Part shown: positions 22,959-36,379 of the stretch, piece after piece
How the letters are laid out: every line of letters starts with the position of its first letter
Position numbering within the stretch: the first letter of the stretch is position 1
NCBI GenBank assembly: GCA_944363785.1
Contig: CALVVF010000002.1
Location: 65,681 to 129,680, forward strand
Length of the DNA stretch: 64,000 bases
Direction of reading: 5' to 3'
Source of the DNA: an uncultured Bacilli bacterium
GTDB taxonomy: Bacteria > Bacillota_I > Bacilli_A > RF39 > UBA660
Notes under the pieces: generated by a model
Told to the model about the DNA's origin: nothing
Database searches by the model: none
The model's input: the letters and a program-made list of their open reading frames with translations, nothing else
Made by a program: the position numbers and the translations under genes

Positions 22959-25919
22959 ATGTACGTACCATTATATATAAAAACAAATTATTCTTTATTA
23001 TCGAGTGTAATTAAAATAGATCAATTATTAGAGTGTGCGAAAAAGCATCATATTTCTTCCCTAGCTATAACCGATAATAATATGTTCGCTACTATGGAGT
23101 TCTACCACAAATGTAGACAAGCAGAAATTAATCCAATAATCGGTTTAGAAGTAGAATTAGAAAACGATATTTTATTATTATATGCTAAAAATTATCGTGG
23201 CTATCAAACTTTAATTAAACTATCGACAATACAGAGTGAGAGAAAAATTAGCCAATTAGATATAGAAAATAATCATGAAGAAGTAATCGCTATCGTTCCT
23301 TTTTCTAGTAGACATATATTAACAACTATTCAGAATATAATTCCTGATTGTTATTTAGGATACCAAAATAAACAAGAAGAAATAGAAGCCAAAAAAATAA
23401 GTCAGAATATCGTCTATGTCAATCAAACCCTATACTTAGATGCCTCAGAAAGTGAATACTTAAAATATCTATATATGATACGTGATGGTAAGACAATAGC
23501 GGATACTACTTTCTATGATCTAAATGATCACGAACTACGGTTAGAAAATATCTATGAATATTCAACCAATACAGGTTTATGGACAACCGAAGTAATTGCT
23601 AATCAATGTAGAGTGGAGTTTCCAGAGACACAGTTGTTGTTACCCATCTTTGAAACAGGAAAAAATGTAACTTCTGATCAATATCTAGAAAATCTTGCTA
23701 AAGCAGGACTTGCGAGAAGATTAAATAATCAAGTACCAGCATCTTATGCTAACCGTTTAAATTATGAACTTAGTATCATCGAAAAAATGGGTTTTTCCAA
23801 TTACTTTTTAGTTGTGTATGACTTTATTAAATATGCAAAGAAAAATAAAATCCTAGTAGGTCCTGGACGTGGTAGTGGTGCCGGTTCTTTAGTTTGTTAT
23901 TCTATCGGGATAACCGATATCGATCCGATTCAATATGATTTATTATTTGAACGTTTTTTAAATCCGGAAAGAATCAGTATGCCTGATATTGATACTGATT
24001 TTCCAGATATTTATCGTGATCAAGTAATTCAATATGTCATCCAAAAATATGGTCAAAAAAGAGTAAGTGGTATCGTAACCTTTGGAACCTTAGCTGCCAA
24101 ACAAGCACTACGAGATGTAGCTAGAGTACTAAATGTTCCTAGCTATCAAATTGATTTGATCACTAAACGAATTCCTAACGTAACAAAACAGAAATTACCA
24201 GATTTCTATCATACAGATAAAGAATTAAAAAATATCATCGATAGTGAAAAGAAACTTCAATTAATGTTTAAAATTGCCTGTCATATCGAGGGCTTTCCTA
24301 GACATACTTCTTCCCATGCTGCCGGAATCGTCATGTGTAAAAAAGATTTAGATGAAGTAATTCCGTTAACGAAAAGTGATACCATGTATTTAAGTGGATT
24401 TTCTATGGAATACTTAGAACCATTAGGACTATTAAAAATGGATTTCCTAGGATTAAGAACTCTAACGACGATTATGCATATTATGGAAGAAATTACAAAA
24501 AAAGAAAATATAACTATCGATTTTAATCGTATTCCTCTTGATGACAAAAAAGTATTAGCTTTATTTCAAAAAGCCGATACAACCGGTATTTTTCAATTTG
24601 AATCAGAAGGAATGAAAAACTTTTTAAGAAACCTAGAACCAAACAGTTTTGAAGATATCTTTGCTGCCATTGCTTTGTTCAGACCGGGTCCAGCTAGTAA
24701 CATTGATTCTTATATTAGAAGAAAAAAAGGACAAGAAGAAATTACTTACCTAGATCCATGCCTAGAACCAATCTTAAAGAGTACAAAAGGAATTATCATC
24801 TATCAAGAACAAATTATGCAGATTGCTAATCAATTAGCTGGATATTCTTTAGGAGAAGCAGATATTTTAAGAAAAGCAATGAGTAAAAAGAAAAGTGATG
24901 TCTTAAAAAATGAAGAAGAAAAATTTATAAGACAGAGTGTAGAAAGAGGACATACTCAAGAAATAGCTAAGCAGATTTTTGACTTGATTTTGAATTTTGC
25001 AAATTTTGGATTCAATCGTTCACATTCAGTAGCTTACTCATTGATTGCGTATAAGATGGCTTATTTAAAAGTGTATTTTCCCAAATACTTTTATAGTAGT
25101 TTATTAAGTTCAGTAATTGGAAGTGATTCTAAAACCAAAGAATATACCAATGAAATTAAGGCTAAGAAAATAAAAATAAAAAAACCATGTATCAATCAAA
25201 GTGGCAAAGAATATATCGTAGAACCAGATGGAATCAGATATCCATTAACAGGAATAAAAAATGTAGGATTAGTCTCAGTAGAAGCAATTCTTGCTAATCG
25301 TCAAGAACCATATACAGATATCTTTGATTTTGTTCGTAAAAATGCCGATCGCGGAATAAATAGTAAAGTATTTGAATCTTTAATTGATGCCGGATGTTTT
25401 GATCTCTTTGGCTATAACCATCATACTCTTCATCATAATTTAGACAGTATCTTGAATTATGCTGAACTAGTAAAAGACTTAGATAGCGAATATGTATTAA
25501 AACCAGAGATTGAAGTAGTAGAAGAATATAGTAAAGAATATCTAATAAATAAAGAAAAAGAATTATTTGGTATCTATTTAAGTAATCATCCAGTTACTTT
25601 CTATAAAGCCAAATATTCTGATATTGTTTCTTTAGATCAGATAAAAGATAATTATAATCGCAAAGTAAAAGTAATTGTATTAATTGACAAAGTACGAACG
25701 ATAAAAACTAAAAACGGTGATGATATGATGTTTTTATGGGGAAGTGATGAATATCAAGCAATGGATTTTACACTCTTTCCTAAGACATATCAACGTTATT
25801 TAAATATGTCACTCCAAAGTAATATGATTGTAAAAATAGAAGGAAAAGTAGAAAGAAGATATGATAAGTTTCAAGTGATAGTCGATCAAATTGAATGGCT
25901 AAATCAGAAAGAAAATTAA
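22959..25919 (+). CDS. dnaE: DNA polymerase III alpha subunit DnaE
   Basis: 986 residues, shorter than B. subtilis DnaE. An N-terminal PHP domain (YSLLSSVIKIDQLL, AITDNNMFATMEFY) is followed by the C-family polymerase core: GPGRGSGAGSLVCYSIGIT, the catalytic Asp pair in MPDIDTDFPD (about residue 342) and the third Asp in LLKMDFLGLRTL (about 493). A helix-hairpin-helix region and a C-terminal OB fold come next. In PolC-containing Bacillota, DnaE extends RNA primers on the lagging strand. The repeat-protein pseudogene starts 17 bases downstream and may share its transcript. Confidence 0.95.
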   Translation: MYVPLYIKTNYSLLSSVIKIDQLLECAKKHHISSLAITDNNMFATMEFYHKCRQAEINPIIGLEVELENDILLLYAKNYRGYQTLIKLSTIQSERKISQLDIENNHEEVIAIVPFSSRHILTTIQNIIPDCYLGYQNKQEEIEAKKISQNIVYVNQTLYLDASESEYLKYLYMIRDGKTIADTTFYDLNDHELRLENIYEYSTNTGLWTTEVIANQCRVEFPETQLLLPIFETGKNVTSDQYLENLAKAGLARRLNNQVPASYANRLNYELSIIEKMGFSNYFLVVYDFIKYAKKNKILVGPGRGSGAGSLVCYSIGITDIDPIQYDLLFERFLNPERISMPDIDTDFPDIYRDQVIQYVIQKYGQKRVSGIVTFGTLAAKQALRDVARVLNVPSYQIDLITKRIPNVTKQKLPDFYHTDKELKNIIDSEKKLQLMFKIACHIEGFPRHTSSHAAGIVMCKKDLDEVIPLTKSDTMYLSGFSMEYLEPLGLLKMDFLGLRTLTTIMHIMEEITKKENITIDFNRIPLDDKKVLALFQKADTTGIFQFESEGMKNFLRNLEPNSFEDIFAAIALFRPGPASNIDSYIRRKKGQEEITYLDPCLEPILKSTKGIIIYQEQIMQIANQLAGYSLGEADILRKAMSKKKSDVLKNEEEKFIRQSVERGHTQEIAKQIFDLILNFANFGFNRSHSVAYSLIAYKMAYLKVYFPKYFYSSLLSSVIGSDSKTKEYTNEIKAKKIKIKKPCINQSGKEYIVEPDGIRYPLTGIKNVGLVSVEAILANRQEPYTDIFDFVRKNADRGINSKVFESLIDAGCFDLFGYNHHTLHHNLDSILNYAELVKDLDSEYVLKPEIEVVEEYSKEYLINKEKELFGIYLSNHPVTFYKAKYSDIVSLDQIKDNYNRKVKVIVLIDKVRTIKTKNGDDMMFLWGSDEYQAMDFTLFPKTYQRYLNMSLQSNMIVKIEGKVERRYDKFQVIVDQIEWLNQKEN

Positions 25920-25936: not shown

Positions 25937-28273
25937 ATGATTAGAACAACAGAAGAAGAGTACCGTTTAGCTTTAGAGAAATGGAAAAAAGAAAATCCGG
26001 ATAAAGCATACAGGGATATACCAAGTAAAGCAGTTGTTGAAGTAAATGGAAAAACCATTAATATCGGAGAAAGAATAGGTAGAATAAAAGGTGGAAAAGT
26101 CAAACTAAAATCTGAAGATCGAAAATATTGGGAAGAAAGAGGAGTACTAACTTCCAAGCGAATCACCGAGGAAGAATACCATTTAGCTTTAGAGAAATGG
26201 AAAAGGGAAAATCCGGATAAAGAGTATAAGGATATTCTAACTAAAACAGTAGTCGAAATAAATGGTAAGCAAGTAAATATAGGGATAAGAATAAATAATA
26301 TAAAAAGTGGTCGTGTCAAACTAAAACCTGAAGATCGAAAATATTGGGAAGAAAAAGGTATTCTGAAAAGAAAAAAGGAAAGACCAAGTGAAGAAGAATA
26401 TCAAAAAGCTTTAGAAATATGGGAAGAAAATAATCCCGATAAAGAATGTAGGAATATAACTAGGAATACTGTTGTAGAAGTAAATGGAAAAATGATCAAT
26501 TTAGGACTAAGAATAAACAGTATAAAAAGTGGTCATGTTAAATTAAGCATGGAAGATAGAAATTTTTGGCAACAAAAAGGTATATTAGATAGTAAACAAA
26601 TAACGGAAGAAGAATACCGTTTAGCTTTAGAAAAATGGAAAATAGAAAATCCCGATAAAGAATATAGGGATATTCCAAGTAAAATCATAATTGAAGTAAA
26701 TGGAAAAACAATTAACTTAGGTGGACGAATAACTAGAATGAAAAAGAACCCTGATATATTGACAGAAGAAGAAAAAAAATATTGGAAAGAAAGGGGAGTA
26801 TTAGAAGCAAAATACTTAAAAGATAAAGACTATCAGCGAGCCTTAGAAAAATGGAAAGAAGAACATCCCGATCAAGAATATAAAGATATTCCCAGTAATG
26901 CTACAGTTGAATTAGATGGAAGAATAGTTCGTCTAGGAGCTAAAATAAGTAACATGAAAAACATGCTGCTTCTTTGCCAGAGGAAATAAGAAAATATTGG
27001 GAAGAAAAGGGTGTATTAGAGAGTAAGCAGATAACGATGAAAGAATACCAACTAGCTTTAGAAAAATGGAAAAGCGAAAACCCTGATAAAGAGTATAAGG
27101 ATATTTCACAAAGAACAGTAGTCGAAATAAATGGAAAAAGAATCAATCTAGGAGATAAGATAAACCTCATAAGAAATAACCAAGTCAAACTAACTCTTGA
27201 AGATCAAAAATACTGGGAAAAAAAGGAATATTAGAACCAAAACGAATAACAGAAGAAGAATATCGCTTAGCTTTAGAAAAGTGGAAAGAGGAAAACCCAG
27301 ATAAAGAGTATAGTGATATTTCAAAAAAAACAACAGTCGAAATAAATGGCAAGAAAATCCACCTAGGTACAAGAATATCCAATATAAGAAATGGACGTAT
27401 CAAATTAACTCCTGAAAATAGAAAGTATTGGCAAGAAAAAGGTATATTGGATGTAAAGATATGTGAAAATTCAACTTCACAAGAATTTTCCTCTACTTTG
27501 GGAAAATATGCTCTTCTTTTTCATGGTGATTTAGAAAAAACTAGTCGAGTAGCTTATTGTTTGACTGATCTAAGAGAAAAACGAAAGAAAATCAAAAAGA
27601 AAAAAACATCTGTATGGAACTATGAAAAAGATGCCTATTTACTAAACTATATATTACTAGAATTACAATTAGATAGTAATCAAATCTTACAGGATATGAG
27701 TAACCAAAGAATTACTATAGAAGAAGCAATCCGCCATCAGATATTTTTACAAACAAGTGAAAAAAGAGAAAATGGCTGGCTGGAAGAGTTATATAATTAT
27801 TTAATTGATGAGATAAATATCAAAAAGAATGAACAACAGGCAGTAGAAGATATTATTGGACAATATGAGTCAATGATGGTAAAATATCATCTTACTTTAG
27901 AAGAACAACAAATCATTAATAAAGCTTTCTCTAAATATTTAAAAGTAATGAAAGAATATCAAATCTTAGATGTCGGACTAGAAACCGATGAAGAGAAAAA
28001 ACTAGAAAAAATCAAAAACTATAACTTAGATCAAGAAGACATCGAAGAGAGCTATTTCGTTCCACTAGAATTTGATCAAGGAACACTTTTAGAAAGAAAA
28101 AGTAAACTTTATCAAAGAAGACAACTACTACGTCAATATATTATGATTGGGACTATTATTCAGAGCAAGAAAAACAAGAAACAGTCATGAATAATCATTT
28201 CACACTAGATGAAATCAATTACATAAACATTACTAGAGAACAAATAAATAAAATGCTAAAGAAAAGTAGATAA
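25937..28273 (+). pseudogene. Seven-repeat paralogue of the 28287 gene, broken by three -1 shifts
   Basis: A good SD (AAAGAGGGGG) and ATG 25937 start a frame with tandem ~73-residue repeats (consensus EEYRLALEKWKxENPDKEY). The frame shifts by -1 near 26960-26965 (in repeat 5), again at the A7 run 27218-27224 (end of repeat 6), and again near 28142-28146 in the C-terminal domain. Following all three gives one continuous protein of about 775 residues ending at TAA 28273, aligned throughout with the intact neighbour, including its last segment (DWDYYS, then NKML). It is therefore a decayed copy or a gene needing recoding. The second shift lies on A-AAA-AAG in the correct phase for -1 slippage; the other two sites are poor. 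Confidence 0.8.
25950..27440 (+). repeat. Seven tandem ~220-bp direct repeats
   Basis: Diverged direct repeats, one per protein unit, each with GAATACC-x-TTAGC, AATCCCGATAAAGA and GTCGAAATAAATGG-like anchors. Confidence 0.85.
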
Positions 28274-28286
28274 GTAGGTGATAACA

Positions 28287-30749
28287 ATGAAAATAGTAAC
28301 AGAAGAAGAATATCGCTTAGCTTTAGAAAAGTGGAAAGAGGAAAACCCCGATAAAGAATACAGCGATGTTCCAGTAAAAACAGTAATTGAAATAAATGGA
28401 AAAACAATTAATTTAGGTACAAGAATAAGCTATATGAGACAGTATCCATACAAGCTTTCTGAAGAAATAAGGAATTATTGGAAAAAAAAAGGGATTCTAA
28501 ATAGAAAAATAGAAAGACCAACCGAAGAAGAATATCGTTTGGCTTTAGAAAAATGGAAAGAAGAACATCCCGATAAAAAATATACAGATATTCCTCAAAG
28601 TGCTGTAATAGAAATAAATGGTAAACAAATTAGTATAGGAAATAGAATCCGAAATATCAAACATGAGAAAGTGCAATTAAGCAATAAAGATATAGCATAT
28701 TATTGTGAAAAGGGAATACTTGCCTCAAACCATATAAAAGAAGAAGAATATCACTTAGCCTTGGAAAAATGGAAAAGTGAAAACCCTGATAAAGAATACC
28801 AAGATATTCCTTTCACTACAATAGTAGAAATAAATGGCAAACAGATCTCTATAGGGGAAAGAATATTAAAATTAAAAACAGGTAGTATCGCTTTAAACCC
28901 AAAACAAAAGAGTTATTGGCAAGAAAAAGGGATATTAGAAAAAGCAAATTTAACTATAGCAGAAGAAGAATATTGTCAAGCCTTAGAAAAATGGAAACAA
29001 GAAAATCACGATAAAGAATACCAAGATATTCCATCAACTACAGTAGTAGAGTTAAATGGTAAAACTATTCATTTAGGTATGAGAATTACTAAAATGAGAT
29101 GTGGTGACTATCAATTAACGGAAGAGATGAAAAAATATTGGGGAGAAAAAGGACTATTGACAAGAAAAAATAAATGTCCATCAAAAGAAGAATACCGCTT
29201 AGCTTTAGAAAAATGGAAACAAGAAAATCCCGATAAAGAATATAGTGATATCCCGGTAAAAGCAGTAGTCGAAATAAATGGAAAAACAATTAGTATAGGT
29301 AGAAGAATATCTAGTATGAGAAATGGATGTATCCAATTAACAGAAGAAGAGAAAAAATACTGGGGAGAAAAAGGTTTACTGACGAGAAAAAATGAACATC
29401 AACCGGAAGAACTATACCGTTTAGCCTTAGAAAAATGGAAAGCTGAAAATCCCGATAAAAAATATCAGAATATCACTCAAAATACGGTAGTCGAAATAAA
29501 TGGAAAAACAATTCGCATAGGTAAAAGAATATCTGCTATAAGAAATGGGTTTATCAAATTAAATGAAGAACAAAGAAACTATTGGCAGAAAAAAGGAATA
29601 GTTATTCAAAAGAACAGTAGACCAACCGAAGAAGAATACCGCTTAGCTTTAGAAAAATGGAAAAGTGAAAATCCCGATAAAGAATATCAAGATCTTCCAT
29701 CAACTGTGATTGTCGAATTAAATGGTAAACAAATTCATCTAGGAGCAAGAATATCCGCTGTAAAAGGGGGAAATATTCATTTAACGCAGGACCAAAAAAA
29801 ATATTGGGAAGATAAAGGTGTCTTAAAAAGAAAAAAGGAAAGGCCAACCGAGGAAGAATACCGTTTAGCTTTAGAAAAATGGAAAAAAGAACATCCCAAT
29901 AAAAAATATACGGATATTCCTCAAAGTACTGTAGTTGAAATAAATGGAAAATCTATTTATATAGGTAGAAGAGTTGATAAAATAAAAAAAGGAAAAATTA
30001 AGTTGCCACAAGACCAAAAAAAATACTGGGAAGAAAAATGTTTATTTGGAATGACAGATCAAGGAGAAAAAAATAATTCCTCATGGAGCGAAGAAAAATA
30101 TGTAAAACAAATGGAAGTCATTCTTGAACAATTAGGCTTAGATAGTAAAGAAATCTTAAAAGAGATGGATAAAGACATAATTTCATTAGAAGAAGCAATT
30201 GCTAATCAAACATTTTCTCAGATAGATGAAAAGAAACAGCCTGAATGGATAAAAGAATTATATATTGGTCTAATTAAAAGAATAAAAGTAGAATGTAGTG
30301 AGGAACAATTTATCACTGAAGTGGCTAATATGTGTATCGATCTAAAAAAAGAATTTTTACTTAGTGAATTAGAAATACAATTCATTAAAGAAAAGGCAAT
30401 AAGATATTTCAAGTTGATGAAGCAATATCAAATTTTAGAAGTAGGGTTAGAAATAAACGAAAGAGAAAAGCGAAGTAAGATTAGAAGATATAATCTAGAC
30501 GCAGAAGAAATTGAAGAAAGTTATTTGATCCCTTTAGAATTTGAAAATGGTATACCATTAGAGACAAAGAGTAAAATGTATCTAAGAGGACAACTATTAC
30601 GTCAATATATCATCGATTGGGATTATTATTCTGATCAAGAAAAGAAAACAGCAATCGAGAAATGGACTTTTACAGACGAAGAAGTTAATTGTATTAATGC
30701 CACTAGAAATAAAATTAATGGTATGATGAAAAAACTAAATATAAGATAA
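28287..30749 (+). CDS. Eight-repeat protein with conserved C-terminal domain
   Basis: 820 residues. Eight tandem units of 73-74 residues fit the pattern EEYRLALEKWKxENPDKEYxDIP, then VVEINGKxIxLGxRI, then two variable residues, (I/M)(R/K), three to four variable residues, LTEExKKYWxEKGIL. The LGxRI...R...L...YW..KG(I/L)L part resembles helicase-associated (HA, PF03457-like) domains, which bind nucleic acid; this is inference. A C-terminal domain of about 220 residues, shared with the broken upstream copy, has YQILEVGLE, YNLDAEEIEESYLIPLEF and LLRQYIIDWDYYS. There is no signal or membrane segment. ATG 28287 follows GGTGAT (28277-28282); GTG 28278 lies in the SD. It sits between dnaE and polC. 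Function unknown. Confidence 0.8.
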   Translation: MKIVTEEEYRLALEKWKEENPDKEYSDVPVKTVIEINGKTINLGTRISYMRQYPYKLSEEIRNYWKKKGILNRKIERPTEEEYRLALEKWKEEHPDKKYTDIPQSAVIEINGKQISIGNRIRNIKHEKVQLSNKDIAYYCEKGILASNHIKEEEYHLALEKWKSENPDKEYQDIPFTTIVEINGKQISIGERILKLKTGSIALNPKQKSYWQEKGILEKANLTIAEEEYCQALEKWKQENHDKEYQDIPSTTVVELNGKTIHLGMRITKMRCGDYQLTEEMKKYWGEKGLLTRKNKCPSKEEYRLALEKWKQENPDKEYSDIPVKAVVEINGKTISIGRRISSMRNGCIQLTEEEKKYWGEKGLLTRKNEHQPEELYRLALEKWKAENPDKKYQNITQNTVVEINGKTIRIGKRISAIRNGFIKLNEEQRNYWQKKGIVIQKNSRPTEEEYRLALEKWKSENPDKEYQDLPSTVIVELNGKQIHLGARISAVKGGNIHLTQDQKKYWEDKGVLKRKKERPTEEEYRLALEKWKKEHPNKKYTDIPQSTVVEINGKSIYIGRRVDKIKKGKIKLPQDQKKYWEEKCLFGMTDQGEKNNSSWSEEKYVKQMEVILEQLGLDSKEILKEMDKDIISLEEAIANQTFSQIDEKKQPEWIKELYIGLIKRIKVECSEEQFITEVANMCIDLKKEFLLSELEIQFIKEKAIRYFKLMKQYQILEVGLEINEREKRSKIRRYNLDAEEIEESYLIPLEFENGIPLETKSKMYLRGQLLRQYIIDWDYYSDQEKKTAIEKWTFTDEEVNCINATRNKINGMMKKLNIR
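28296..30030 (+). repeat. Eight tandem ~220-bp direct repeats
   Basis: In-frame direct repeats encoding the eight protein units, homologous to those in the upstream pseudogene. They are good substrates for recombination between and within the two copies. Confidence 0.85.
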
Positions 30750-30867: not shown

Positions 30868-31701
30868 ATGAAATTAACATTTGAAACGAACGACTATCTG
30901 CTAACTTGGAATCTGTTATATGGAGCTTCTATTTCACCAAAGATTCATGCTTCGAAGCAAAAATTATGGGCAACTTACAAAAAACAATACAATGCTGGTA
31001 TGAAAGATAAAGATGAAATGCTCCAAGATATCAAAAACTATATTCCTGATGATGATACTTTATATAATTTAATATTTGAAACGGAAATGTTTGAGGACTT
31101 AAAAAAAAGTGCAGAGAAGTATCGGTTAGCACTAATGAAATTTTGGGATGAAAAGAAAAAAGAAATTAATCAATATATAAAAGAAATTATTCGCTTTCCT
31201 TTAGCTGAAAACTATCATGTACTTGTACTTTGTCCGGCTATGGATACCGCTTTAGTCTCTAAAACGACAAAAACAAGTATTGGCTGGGGATTTAAAAAAG
31301 ATTTAGAGGATATGTGTATGGCAATTTCTAATATTTTATATGCCCTAATTAAAAATGAAATGGGTGATTTTGAAAAAGAGTATAAAGAAATTGTCCAAGC
31401 GATTCTAGAATTAGCTATTCATAATGAACTATATACAAGACTTTCTCAAAAATCAAATTACTTAGAAGGAGATCATACTTTGACATTTTTAAAACGTCAG
31501 ATCTATCCATATTGGTTGATGTATCTAGGTTGTGATCGAGAAGATATGACTCACTATATGATGCGGGATAAAATTGCTTTTGATATTGATAACTATACTA
31601 TGGAAACAGCATTAAAGAAAGTAGATCTATATGAATTTATTCGTTTTTGTATAAAAAATCAAAAACATATTATTCGTATTAATAATTTAGAAATAATATA
31701 G
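30868..31701 (+). CDS. Hypothetical protein, 277 residues
   Basis: Not recognised. It appears mostly helical, with aromatic-rich stretches: NDYLLTWNLLYGASISPKIH at the N-terminus, a long charged helix (KYRLALMKFWDEKKKEIN), FPLAENYHVLVLCPAMDT and IYPYWLMYLGCDREDMTHY. No signal peptide, membrane segment or known catalytic motif. It has a GATGAGGATG-type weak SD region and sits alone between the repeat protein and polC; a terminator overlaps its end. Confidence 0.6.
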   Translation: MKLTFETNDYLLTWNLLYGASISPKIHASKQKLWATYKKQYNAGMKDKDEMLQDIKNYIPDDDTLYNLIFETEMFEDLKKSAEKYRLALMKFWDEKKKEINQYIKEIIRFPLAENYHVLVLCPAMDTALVSKTTKTSIGWGFKKDLEDMCMAISNILYALIKNEMGDFEKEYKEIVQAILELAIHNELYTRLSQKSNYLEGDHTLTFLKRQIYPYWLMYLGCDREDMTHYMMRDKIAFDIDNYTMETALKKVDLYEFIRFCIKNQKHIIRINNLEII

Positions 31702-31741: not shown

Positions 31742-34700
31742 ATGACAGAGGATAAAATAACAATTCTATTTGAACAACTTCAATTAACAGAAGAAGAGAA
31801 AAGCAACTTACCAGGATTATCACTAGAAAAAGTAATGGTAAATCCTAAAACTAACTGTTGGACTTTCCTCCTTCATAGTAAAAGTATTCTACCTTTAAAA
31901 GATTATCAACTTTTAAGAGAAAAAGGAGAGAAAGCTTTTCGCCAAATTAAACAGGTCTTTTTTAAGATTAATCCGGAAGAACAAAGCTTTGAATACTTAC
32001 CTGATTATTATAAACAAGGATTAAAAGAAGTGAGAGATATTTTAATTTTCTCTTCTATTTTTGATGAAAATCTAGTTTTACAAGATGGAGAATATAAAAT
32101 AGAAGTAACTAGTTTAGAAGAAGAAAAACAAGTAAAAACTTTCTTACCCAAATTAAATTATTTTTTAAAGATGGCAGGTTTTTCTTTAGAGCTTACTACT
32201 TATATTAATGAAGAGAAAAAAGAGTTAGTTCGTCAAGAGATTAAAGAAGAATTAAAAGAAGCAATGACTACTGTACCACCCATTGTAGAAGAAAATAAAC
32301 CTATGGTTGAAAAGAAAACGTATAGTGATAACGGAGAAAAGAAAGCTTATCGTCGTCCAGCTAAGAAAGAGGATGATCCTAATGTAATATTGGGTCGTAA
32401 AATTGGGGATAAACCAATATCGATGAAAAGTATTGTTGGAGAAAGCGATAATATTACCGTAGAAGGATATGTTTTTGGGGTTGATTATTTTGAGTCAAGT
32501 AAAACTGATTTTAAAATTATCACATTAAAATTAACGGATTATAGCGATAGTATTTATGCTAAAGTGTTTATTCGTGGTGATGAAGAATATGCTCGACTTT
32601 CCAAAGAGTTAAAGACTGGTAAATGGTTTGCTTTACGTGGCTATACAAAAAATGATCAATTCTCTAAAGAACTAGTTTTAAATGTACGTGATATTTGTGT
32701 TTTAGAACGCCAAGTAGAAGAAGTAAAAGATACTTATCCAGAAAAAAGAGTAGAGTTACATGCCCATACGATGATGAGTCAAATGGATGGTGTAGACGAT
32801 GAAATTAAGTTAGTAAAACAAGCAATGAAGTGGGGACATCGAGGGATTGCGATTACGGATCATAATGGCTGTCAGGCTTTTCCTCATGTCTATAATACAG
32901 TAACCGATTATAATAAAGGAAAAGAAGAACAAGATAAATTTAAAGCGATCTATGGAACGGAACTTACCTTAATTGATGATAGTGTCGATATCGTTATTCG
33001 TGGAGATGACCGAGATCTACTCACAACTACTTACGTTGTTTTCGACTTTGAAACGACTGGATTTAATGCCGGTGGAGAAGATACGATTATCGAAATTGGT
33101 GCGGTAAAGATAAAAAATGGTGAGATTATCGAACGTTTTGATGAACTCGTTAATCCTAGTAAACCATTAAGTGCCAAAATTACCGAAGTTACCAATATTA
33201 CGGATCAAATGTTAATTGGTAAAGATAACGAAGAAAATGCTGTTCGTCGTTTTATTGAATGGTACGGGGACTTACCTATGGTTGCGCATAATGCGAAGTT
33301 TGATACTTCTTTCCTAGAAATGGCGATTAAAAAATATGGATTTAAAAAATTGACCAATCCTATCATCGATACTCTTGAACTCTCTAGAACATTAGATACC
33401 AATTATGCCCGTCATAGTTTGAGTGCCTTGGTTAAACGATACGATGTACCATGGGACGAAGATGCCCATCACCGTGCGGATTACGATGCTGAAGGAACTG
33501 CCTTAGTTTTTCACAAAATGTTAAAGAAGTTAAGCGACAGAAACTTTGAAACTATCGCCGAGTTAAATAATCTAGTATCTAAAGAAGAAATCCATAAATA
33601 TGGACGTAGTTATCATGTAAATCTACTAGCGAAAAATAAAACGGGACTAAAAAACTTGTTTAAAATTATCAGTCTAGCCAATACAAAATATCTCTATAAA
33701 ACGCCAAGAATCTTACGTAGTGAAATCGAAAATCATCGCGAAGGACTACTAGTAGGAAGTGGCTGTTATGAAAGTGAAGTATTTAGAGAAGCAAGAAGTA
33801 AAGCTGATGAAGAGTTAACCAACATTATCAATTTTTACGATTATGTCGAAGTTCAACCACCAGAGTGTTATGATCATCTAATACAAATGCATGATTTTGA
33901 TAATGAGGAACAATTATTAGAAAATATAAAGAAAGTAATTCGAGTAACTAAAGATAGTGGTAAGTTAATCGTCGCAACAGGGGATGTTCACCACTTAAAA
34001 CGAGAAGACAAAATATATCGTGAAATTATCGTCAATCAAAAAGTACCAGGTGGAGGTAGACATCCACTAGCGAAAAGTGATATTACTGAAATTCCAAGTA
34101 ATCATTTCCGAACGACCGATGAAATGATGGAAGATTTTGCTTTTCTAGATGAAGAAGTAAGAAAAGAGATTATAATTACGAATCCAAATAAAATCTTGGA
34201 TATGGTAGAAGAAATCGAAGTAATTATCGATACTGGTGGTATTCCTTTTTCTCCTGCTATTGATCGAAGTGTAGAAACAGTAACAGAACTAGTATATACA
34301 AAGGCTTCTTCTTGGTATGGCGATCCATTACCATTCAATATCGAAGAGCGAATTGCGAAAGAATTGTATGGTGATCTATTAATTGATGTCATCAAAAAAG
34401 AAGTAGCGAAGAAAGACCTCAGTGAAGAAGAAGCAGAAAAAGAATTGTATCGCCGTCTACATGAAGTAATTCTAACTGGATTCGATCAAGTAAAAGATCT
34501 TGTTTGGAAAGATTTAAAAGAAAATGATCCAGAATTAACCGATGCCGATCGGGAAAAAACATTAAAAAAGAAATTAGGTGGTGTCATCGGTGGAGGTTTC
34601 GATGTTATCTATCTGATTGCCCAAAAATTAGTTAAACATTCCAATGATGATGGTTATCTTGTTGGTTCACGTGGTTCGGTAGGATCAAGCTTCGTAGCTA

Positions 34701-36379
34701 CAATGATGGGAATTACTGAAGTTAACCCGCTTCCTGCCCATTATTTATGCCGTAACGAAGAATGTAAATATTCTGAATTTATCAACGAAGAGGGAGAAGC
34801 TTATGGTAAAGAATATTCAAGTGGATACGACTTACCAGATAAAATTTGTCCTAAATGTGGTAAACCACTAGGAAAAGAAGGACAAGACATGCCATTTGCG
34901 ACCTTCCTTGGGTTCAATGCCGATAAAGTTCCCGATATTGACTTAAACTTCTCTGGGGAATATCAATGGAAAGCACATGAGTATACGAAAGTATTATTTG
35001 GTGTCGATAATGTATATCGAGCAGGAACAATTGGTACTGTTGCCGAAAAAACAGCCTTTGGTTATGTAAAAGGATATCTCGAAGAACATGGAATTACTAA
35101 TATGCGTACCGCAGAAATCGAGCGCTTAGCCTTAGGTTGTACAGGAGTAAAAAGAACGACCGGCCAACATCCAGGTGGTATTGTCGTTATTCCAGGATAT
35201 ATGGATGTCTTTGATTTTACTCCATTCCAGTATCCGGCCGATGATCCGACAAGTTTATGGCGGACGACGCACTTCGATTACCATGCCATCGATCAAGATG
35301 TCTTAAAACTAGATATACTCGGACACGATGATCCGACCGTATTAAGAATGCTTCAAGACTTATCAGGAATCGATGTGACCACGCTACCAATCAGTGATGA
35401 AAAAGTACTAAGCCTACTTCGTAGTCCTGAAGCATTAGGCGTAACCGAAGAACAAATTATGTGTCCGACTGGAACATTAGGTCTACCAGAAATGGGAACA
35501 AAATTCGTTATTAACATGTTAGTAGAGACCAAACCAAAAACCTTCTCTGAATTAGTGAAAATATCCGGTCTATCACACGGAACTGATGTTTGGGCAGGAA
35601 ATGCTAGCGAACTAATTGAAAATAATGTTGTCCCATTTAAGGACGTTATCGGTTGTCGTGACGATATCATGGTCAACTTAATGAACTGGGGAATGGAACC
35701 AAAACGAGCTTTTAAAATCATGGAATTTGTTCGTAAAGGAAAAGCCAGTAAAGATCCTGAGACATGGAAGGGAATGGCTGAAGACATGAAAAAAGCTAAT
35801 GTTCCCGATTGGTATATTGAGTCATGTCGTAAAATCAAATACATGTTCCCGAAAGCCCATGCTTGTGCTTATGTTATGTCAGCCTTACGAATCGCTTGGT
35901 TCAAAGTCTATCAACCTAACCGCTATTATGCCGCTTATTTTTCAGTAAGAGAAAGTGACTTTGACATCGAATGCATGATGAAAGGGTATAACTCAATTAG
36001 AAAGAGAATTGAAGATTTGACAGAAAAAGGATTCGAAGCCTCTAATAAAGAAACCAATATTTTGGAATGCTTAAAGAATGCCTTAGAGGCAAGTGCTCGA
36101 GGAATAAAATTTGGTTCTATCGATATTTATAAAAGCGATGCCGAACGATTTAAAATCGATGAAGAAGATGAAATGACCTTGATCCCACCATTTCGGTGTA
36201 TTGATGGATTAGGAGGAGCAGTAGCTAGTAGTATCGTAAAAGAAAGAGAAGAAAAAGCCTTCTTGAGTATCGAAGACTTACAAAAACGCGCCAAAGTATC
36301 CGCAACATTGATCGACAAAATGAAAATGATGGGAATATTAAATGATTTACCAGAATCTAGTCAGATGACATTATTTTAA
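31742..36379 (+). CDS. polC: DNA polymerase III PolC-type, alpha subunit with proofreading
   Basis: 1545 residues, the leading-strand replicase of low-GC Bacillota. In order: an N-terminal domain, an OB fold (NITVEGYVFGVDYFES), a PHP domain split by the exonuclease (VELHAHTMMSQMDGVD), a DEDD proofreading exonuclease (VVFDFETTGFNAGGEDTIIE, about residue 430, with VAHNAKFDTSF and HRADYDAEGT), a zinc site (CRNEECK and CPKCGKP), the catalytic palm in VPDIDLNFSGEYQW (about residue 1063) and HFDYHAIDQDVLKLDILGHDDP. The SD is AGGGGG. A murI gene follows after about 40 bases. Confidence 0.97.
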   Translation: MTEDKITILFEQLQLTEEEKSNLPGLSLEKVMVNPKTNCWTFLLHSKSILPLKDYQLLREKGEKAFRQIKQVFFKINPEEQSFEYLPDYYKQGLKEVRDILIFSSIFDENLVLQDGEYKIEVTSLEEEKQVKTFLPKLNYFLKMAGFSLELTTYINEEKKELVRQEIKEELKEAMTTVPPIVEENKPMVEKKTYSDNGEKKAYRRPAKKEDDPNVILGRKIGDKPISMKSIVGESDNITVEGYVFGVDYFESSKTDFKIITLKLTDYSDSIYAKVFIRGDEEYARLSKELKTGKWFALRGYTKNDQFSKELVLNVRDICVLERQVEEVKDTYPEKRVELHAHTMMSQMDGVDDEIKLVKQAMKWGHRGIAITDHNGCQAFPHVYNTVTDYNKGKEEQDKFKAIYGTELTLIDDSVDIVIRGDDRDLLTTTYVVFDFETTGFNAGGEDTIIEIGAVKIKNGEIIERFDELVNPSKPLSAKITEVTNITDQMLIGKDNEENAVRRFIEWYGDLPMVAHNAKFDTSFLEMAIKKYGFKKLTNPIIDTLELSRTLDTNYARHSLSALVKRYDVPWDEDAHHRADYDAEGTALVFHKMLKKLSDRNFETIAELNNLVSKEEIHKYGRSYHVNLLAKNKTGLKNLFKIISLANTKYLYKTPRILRSEIENHREGLLVGSGCYESEVFREARSKADEELTNIINFYDYVEVQPPECYDHLIQMHDFDNEEQLLENIKKVIRVTKDSGKLIVATGDVHHLKREDKIYREIIVNQKVPGGGRHPLAKSDITEIPSNHFRTTDEMMEDFAFLDEEVRKEIIITNPNKILDMVEEIEVIIDTGGIPFSPAIDRSVETVTELVYTKASSWYGDPLPFNIEERIAKELYGDLLIDVIKKEVAKKDLSEEEAEKELYRRLHEVILTGFDQVKDLVWKDLKENDPELTDADREKTLKKKLGGVIGGGFDVIYLIAQKLVKHSNDDGYLVGSRGSVGSSFVATMMGITEVNPLPAHYLCRNEECKYSEFINEEGEAYGKEYSSGYDLPDKICPKCGKPLGKEGQDMPFATFLGFNADKVPDIDLNFSGEYQWKAHEYTKVLFGVDNVYRAGTIGTVAEKTAFGYVKGYLEEHGITNMRTAEIERLALGCTGVKRTTGQHPGGIVVIPGYMDVFDFTPFQYPADDPTSLWRTTHFDYHAIDQDVLKLDILGHDDPTVLRMLQDLSGIDVTTLPISDEKVLSLLRSPEALGVTEEQIMCPTGTLGLPEMGTKFVINMLVETKPKTFSELVKISGLSHGTDVWAGNASELIENNVVPFKDVIGCRDDIMVNLMNWGMEPKRAFKIMEFVRKGKASKDPETWKGMAEDMKKANVPDWYIESCRKIKYMFPKAHACAYVMSALRIAWFKVYQPNRYYAAYFSVRESDFDIECMMKGYNSIRKRIEDLTEKGFEASNKETNILECLKNALEASARGIKFGSIDIYKSDAERFKIDEEDEMTLIPPFRCIDGLGGAVASSIVKEREEKAFLSIEDLQKRAKVSATLIDKMKMMGILNDLPESSQMTLF

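Follow-up and report, generated by a model that had tools for sequence, protein, structure and literature searches.

Eight HA-like repeats encoded between dnaE and polC in an uncultured gut Bacilli bacterium: a probable modular reader of DNA sequence

A gene of an uncultured Bacilli bacterium, here called g2, encodes eight tandem repeats that are kin to the HA domain (PF03457). The positions at which these repeats vary are conserved across HA arrays. We infer from this that the g2 product is probably a modular sequence reader, with DNA as a likelier target than RNA and with the C-terminal domain as the effector. In favor of a reader we count the HA kinship, the recurrent variable columns, the changes between young repeat copies, the helical periodicity, the charge of the variable helix, and the fusions of HA arrays to helicases and sigma-70 factors. 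Counted against it are the Pfam miss, an Arg in place of the hallmark Trp, the lack of a fold match in the PDB, the failure of the fold search to return 2KTA, a pN/pS near 1 at the variable columns, a pTM of 0.49, the lack of an enzyme fusion in the window family and of a recognized C-terminal fold, the broken state of the paralogue g1, and the shortened C-terminal domain of g2.

The window, that is, the whole stretch of DNA analyzed, comprises 64,000 nt (RF39; UBA660; assembly GCA_944363785.1, contig CALVVF010000002.1, positions 65,681-129,680, forward strand). The source assembly is 1.38 Mb in 36 contigs. The host is a gut bacterium, and a search with the C-terminal domain led to named relatives among uncultured Bacilli, for instance Candidatus Onthousia and Candidatus Scybalousia. 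Features of the region are listed in Table 1. The open frame of g2 runs from GTG 28278 to 30749. Within it ATG 28287, the start given by the first-pass annotation, is the likelier one, as an AGGTG ribosome site lies just 5' of it. That annotation also placed a pair of such genes between the two replicative polymerase genes. NCBIfam confirmed dnaE and polC as the flanks, but the pair consists of one intact gene and one frameshifted copy. The copy, g1, encodes about eight repeats and a C-terminal domain without the HTH-like part; it carries three single-base frameshifts, near 26957-26964, in the A-run 27218-27224, and near 28140-28146 (places read from the sequence). Repeats can collapse in metagenome assemblies, and the g1 frameshifts as well as a split array in another genome (G012) are possibly in part assembly errors.

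Table 1. Features of the dnaE-polC region in window positions. Columns 41/44/45/48 are the variable residues of each repeat.
Feature	Positions	Strand	Basis or remark
dnaE	22959..25919	+	upstream neighbor; NCBIfam DNA polymerase III alpha
g1, broken paralogue of g2	25937..28273	+	three-frame translation; repeat and C-terminal domain matches
g2, intact repeat gene, eight HA-like repeats and helical C-terminal domain	28287..30749	+	ORF, sequence
repeat 1	28299..28520	+	variable helix (columns 39-48) 28413-28442; 41/44/45/48 = T S Y Q
repeat 2 (72 residues)	28521..28736	+	variable helix 28635-28664; 41/44/45/48 = N R N H
repeat 3	28737..28958	+	variable helix 28851-28880; 41/44/45/48 = E L K T
repeat 4	28959..29180	+	variable helix 29073-29102; 41/44/45/48 = M T K C
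repeat 5	29181..29402	+	variable helix 29295-29324; 41/44/45/48 = R S S N; first repeat in AlphaFold model
repeat 6	29403..29624	+	variable helix 29517-29546; 41/44/45/48 = K S A N
repeat 7	29625..29846	+	variable helix 29739-29768; 41/44/45/48 = A S A G
repeat 8	29847..30065	+	variable helix 29961-29990; 41/44/45/48 = R D K K
C-terminal domain, all-helical, ~227 aa	30066..30746	+	shared with homologues; alignment A1
277-aa gene, unknown family	30868..31701	+	conserved, adjoins polC
polC	31742..36379	+	downstream neighbor; NCBIfam PolC above cut-off

The block of dnaE, the 277-aa gene, and polC is kept across the genus. Repeat genes lie inside it in four examined genomes (G000, G012, G006, and G005) and are missing there in most others. 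In almost every genus member inspected, the 277-aa gene adjoins polC whether repeat genes are there or not, and for that reason it was set aside as a partner of the repeat proteins. It has no NCBIfam or PHROG match and no Pfam match at E 0.001.

One rival reading is that g1 and g2 are decaying remnants without present function in the source genome. The three frameshifts of g1 and the lack of the cassette at the dnaE-polC site in most genus members are consistent with decay. So is the C-terminal domain of g2, which is without a central stretch of more than 100 residues, including the HTH-like part, that most homologues possess. However, the 2.5-kb frame of g2 is open throughout and has a ribosome site, and in the codon analysis of g1 and g2 pN is near 0 at the framework columns of the repeats while synonymous changes accumulate. 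We regard decay as quite unlikely and g2 as the gene of a probable sequence reader.

The g2 repeats are spaced 74, 72, 74, 74, 74, 74, and 74 residues apart, a period of 74 with one of 72. The strict frame quoted by the first-pass annotation for this eight-repeat modular protein (EEYRLALEKWK, NPDKEY, VVEINGK, LGxRI, YWxEKGIL) is invariant or nearly so. The suggestion that the modules are HA-like held in profile-profile alignment and predicted fold, but not in Pfam. In the Pfam search that had been proposed, the PF03457 model at its curated cut-off matches nothing in g1, g2, or elsewhere in the source genome. The hallmark Trp of LGxW (column 42) is Arg in all eight g2 repeats; in the homologue L113, two of the three repeats have LGxW. 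Other genomes of the same genus carry genuine tandem HA proteins with PF03457 matches. Aligned with hhalign to these same-genus arrays, the window-type repeats score 26.6, and the best of 100 column-shuffled controls scores 17.0. Within the same family, repeats of the L036/L118 type score 36.3 against genuine HA (shuffled best 18.5); those of the L034/L035 type score 26.0 (shuffled best 17.4). All three types align to HA in the register LGx[RW][IL]xx[MQ][KR]. A poorer repeat alignment gave only 18.6, with a shuffled maximum of 22.3 among 300 controls, and small curated alignments gave 22.5. Matches of g2 to T2SSB, alpha-amylase, and PtuB (Pfam, NCBIfam, PHROGs, PADLOC) were rejected as summed repeat artefacts, being weak or having no stretch that passes alone. 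The phage and viral collections hold no close relatives of the window repeats.

AlphaFold modeled repeats 5-7 with a mean pLDDT of 90.3 and, per repeat, a helix at 2-15, a hairpin at 30-37, and helices at 39-47 and 55-63. As the pTM is only 0.49, the arrangement of the repeats relative to each other is not settled by the model. The first-pass annotation named a fold unrelated to nucleic-acid-binding domains as an outcome that would speak against it. That did not occur: among viral models, the best Foldseek match of repeats 5-7 is a phage protein, A0A8S5NYW4 (named "Helicase associated domain", E 1.7e-4, probability 1.00), followed by an unnamed protein, A0A2K9R7U5 (E 2.5e-4), and, more weakly, by a pithovirus type III restriction-like helicase. 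The same model found no useful match in the PDB. 2KTA, a solved HA-like chain of a putative helicase, matches genuine HA repeats by sequence (E 0.0075) and was not returned by the fold search of the window repeats. Given the profile alignment and the fold matches among viral models, we call the g2 repeats HA-like, distant relatives of HA that lie beyond Pfam's boundary. In common with HA (PF03457) they have the order of conserved elements, the LGx[W/R]..[Q/M][R/K] helix in register, hypervariable columns within arrays, and a viral HA protein as best structural match. They differ in falling below Pfam detection, in the Arg at column 42, in a longer hairpin (VVEINGK), in having their own C-terminal domain, and in the absence of a helicase, no ResIII/DEAD (SF2 ATPase) domain being found in g2 or its homologues.

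We then compared the repeats column by column. The differences had been described as concentrated after LG, and variability is indeed strongest there, at columns 41, 44, 45, and 48, spaced i, i+3, i+4, and i+7. Over the eight g2 repeats, column entropy is highest at 41, 48, and 50 (2.75 bits), followed by 14 and 62 (2.25), 38 and 45 (2.16), and 44, 57, and 1 (2.0 bits). Over 13 repeats of g1 and g2, mean pN is 0.65 at columns 41/44/45/48 versus 0.22 elsewhere; only 2 of 20,000 random four-column sets reach that mean. The highest pN of all columns, 0.76, is at the residue after IP (column 26 in g2 numbering, column 25 in profile numbering), which the earlier description missed. As columns 14, 22, 36, 38, 54-57, and 62 of g2 also vary, the variability is focused at this stretch but not confined to it. 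No four-residue set is common to g1 and g2, so the two would read different targets.

The variability along helix 39-48 has a helical period with a best angle of 100-103 degrees; at 100 degrees, 356 and 155 of 20,000 permutations gave as much power in the window family and genuine HA or the reverse order of these two families. Its direction lies 187-200 degrees from L39, opposite L39/I43/M46 (I43 and M46 hydrophobic). Rather than being scattered, which the first-pass annotation would have taken as contrary evidence, the variable positions share a face opposite the buried side, as judged from helical position and not from atomic coordinates. The variable residues are thereby predicted to point away from the protein core on one face of one helix. 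The net charge of columns 39-50 is +2.4, and that of the remainder of the repeat is -0.9.

Columns 41/44/45/48 were chosen on the window repeats before genuine HA arrays were measured. Column 25, the residue after [IV]P in genuine HA arrays, was added after those arrays had been seen, and for this column the test is partly circular. Five same-genus HA arrays or array sets likewise stand out at the four columns and at the residue after VP. In 26 HA arrays from many genera of the bacterial family (at least five repeats each, 187 repeats), the most variable columns are 41, 25, 45, 44, 26, and 48. The corresponding columns in 10 window-family arrays (71 repeats) are 41, 48, 50, 25, 44, and 45. The alignment of homologues across related genomes that had been suggested as a check shows window-family and genuine HA arrays varying most at largely the same columns. 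In eight distant plasmid HA helicase arrays (from Ruminococcus, Streptomyces, Aneurinibacillus, Micromonospora, and Cupriavidus), columns 41, 44, 45, and 48 rank 3, 1, 9, and 10 of 63, a result reached by 5 of 20,000 permutations. Among young copies within HA arrays (at least 80% identical, 107 pairs), pN is 0.368 at the five columns versus 0.061 elsewhere, about sixfold, and pN/pS is about 1.2 versus 0.24.

A pN/pS near 1, not far above it, at the variable columns is also compatible with relaxed constraint. This leads to the main rival of a reader: the HA-like modules would bind nucleic acid non-specifically, basic helix residues contacting the backbone, and the variable face would be unconstrained surface. 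The net positive helix and the variation at other exposed columns would fit as well. On the other hand, in independent HA arrays the same five columns vary more than others presumed to be exposed, and all eight intact g2 repeats differ from one another in their four-residue sets. We consider non-specific binding unlikely and a sequence reader the better account.

Each module is predicted to fold into a helix, then a beta hairpin, then two further helices, the first of them short. This short helix (columns 39-48) presents the variable face 41/44/45/48 and has conserved basic flanks, and the residue after IP varies as well. Together the variable residues probably touch the target, for which the bases of double-stranded DNA are the likeliest candidate. 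Eight modules, each with a different four-residue set, would recognize a composite sequence, and the C-terminal domain would probably execute the effect by partner binding or regulation.

To see how the family is distributed, we surveyed related genomes. Among 385 genomes of the order, 17 match the C-terminal alignment (repeat-only matches included) and 83 match PF03457, versus 0 of 295 phylum-wide genomes. Another site of family members is between two heavy-metal ATPase genes (named by eye from sequence motifs). In Candidatus Onthousia, window-family genes (L113:8948-10681 and L114:8948-10681) are found in the thiI-ackA interval (gene names by eye), which in other members of the window's genus is the slot where genuine HA arrays sit. 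In the same bacterial family, tandem HA arrays occur standalone, helicase-fused, or sigma-70-fused. They have the variable columns and the thiI-ackA slot in common with the window family, but are genuine PF03457 matches with other C-terminal tails. Up to 17 HA modules were detected in one protein of this bacterial family; a 24,115-residue open frame with an HA match in G588 was discarded as an artefact of masked N. An eleven-repeat array is encoded in two overlapping frames (L116:7782-9140 and L116:9065-11302), apparently through one frameshift.

Helicases of the ResIII/DEAD (SF2) kind carry fused HA arrays in this bacterial family. Complete sigma-70 factors (regions 1.2 to 4) carry 3-12 HA repeats at L142:3528-6785, L141:3315-5492, L144:3585-6371, and L140:1100-5365, and the genomes with these fusions also carry separate RpoD-size sigma genes. 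For the window family no fusion to a DNA-acting enzyme was found. In a plasmid collection, 482 of 72,556 records match the tandem HA helicase region, mostly from Streptomyces and Pseudomonas.

Because HA arrays are fused to sigma factors, double-stranded DNA is the probable target. The array could instead read RNA, either transcripts or untranslated regions, as HA domains are attached to SF2 helicases and that superfamily includes RNA helicases. The fusions to complete sigma-70 factors and the frequency of HA helicases on large plasmids argue against RNA, to which we give only a small chance. Protein-recognition repeats also show fast-changing surface residues and arrays that expand and contract, and given this general likeness the array might be a protein- or peptide-binding surface, for example for variable phage or host proteins. 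With the HA kinship, the helicase and sigma factor fusions, and the basic variable helix all pointing away from it, protein binding is very unlikely.

The C-terminal domain, the putative effector of the DNA reader, has no recognized fold, as fold searches gave nothing useful; a model of the homologous region has a pLDDT of 85.8 and a pTM of 0.71. At L120:7907-10762 the same domain shares a protein with eight units of another repeat (FSNGxxINxFWxxNKxxI), for which hhalign did not support an HA-like assignment. The joining of this domain to a repeat not detectably HA suggests that it serves arrays of different kinds as a shared chassis.

Only a few modular scaffolds are known that recognize DNA through fixed reading positions. 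As in modular sequence-specific DNA-binding proteins, the hypervariable residues of the g2 repeats keep to fixed positions along one face of a helix. TALE/BAT/STAR and zinc-finger arrays are similar in working principle only, with near-identical repeats and a few hypervariable residues at fixed positions. A TALE repeat is a helix-loop-helix of about 33-35 residues in which two neighboring residues vary, whereas the g2 repeats have 74 residues, a beta hairpin with three helices, and variable residues spaced along a helix, and are not of the TALE type. Hu et al. 2024 (PMC11417379) describe DNA-binding tandem repeat families with hypervariable positions, with binding proven by experiment. Our claim is of the same kind, with DNA binding by g2 inferred. 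As far as they are described there, the MOON, NORD, and MIRAGE families are unlike HA, and in the main text "helicase" occurs once, in the keyword list.

Hundreds of plasmids and many genomes have HA domains in their annotation, and in the open-access literature we found no paper that treats these domains as readers, no published HA code, no paper joining a sigma factor and the helicase-associated domain, and no usable paper on HA arrays. It is quite possible, if short of probable, that HA modules are an unrecognized code-like scaffold for DNA recognition, with five positions per module setting specificity, and that arrays in gut Bacilli aim helicases, sigma-70 factors, and orphan C-terminal domains at chosen sequences. 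If the five columns do set specificity, HA arrays would offer a testable code and a reason for the presence of HA on helicases. Sigma factors would have a way to be aimed at particular promoters, and a large group of uncharacterized proteins in uncultured gut Bacilli would gain a function.

Other proteins were noted in passing. Three sigma-70 factors of very large size, each with a long C-terminal extension and without HA, are encoded at L180:1806-8933 (2376 aa), L181:2434-9594 (2387 aa), and L182:2593-8013 (1807 aa). In L182 the extension looks to be built of a further tandem repeat, about 75 residues long (...LTPEE..LF.KRNG...). The source genome encodes an additional sigma-70-like factor of 548 aa (L179:2651-4294, contig C1) that is extended at both termini and lacks a repeat array. 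Proteins with collagen-like GPTGPTG repeats are encoded in related genomes (L032:4694-5053, L032:19033-19686, L038:6687-7379, and L040:6418-7128).
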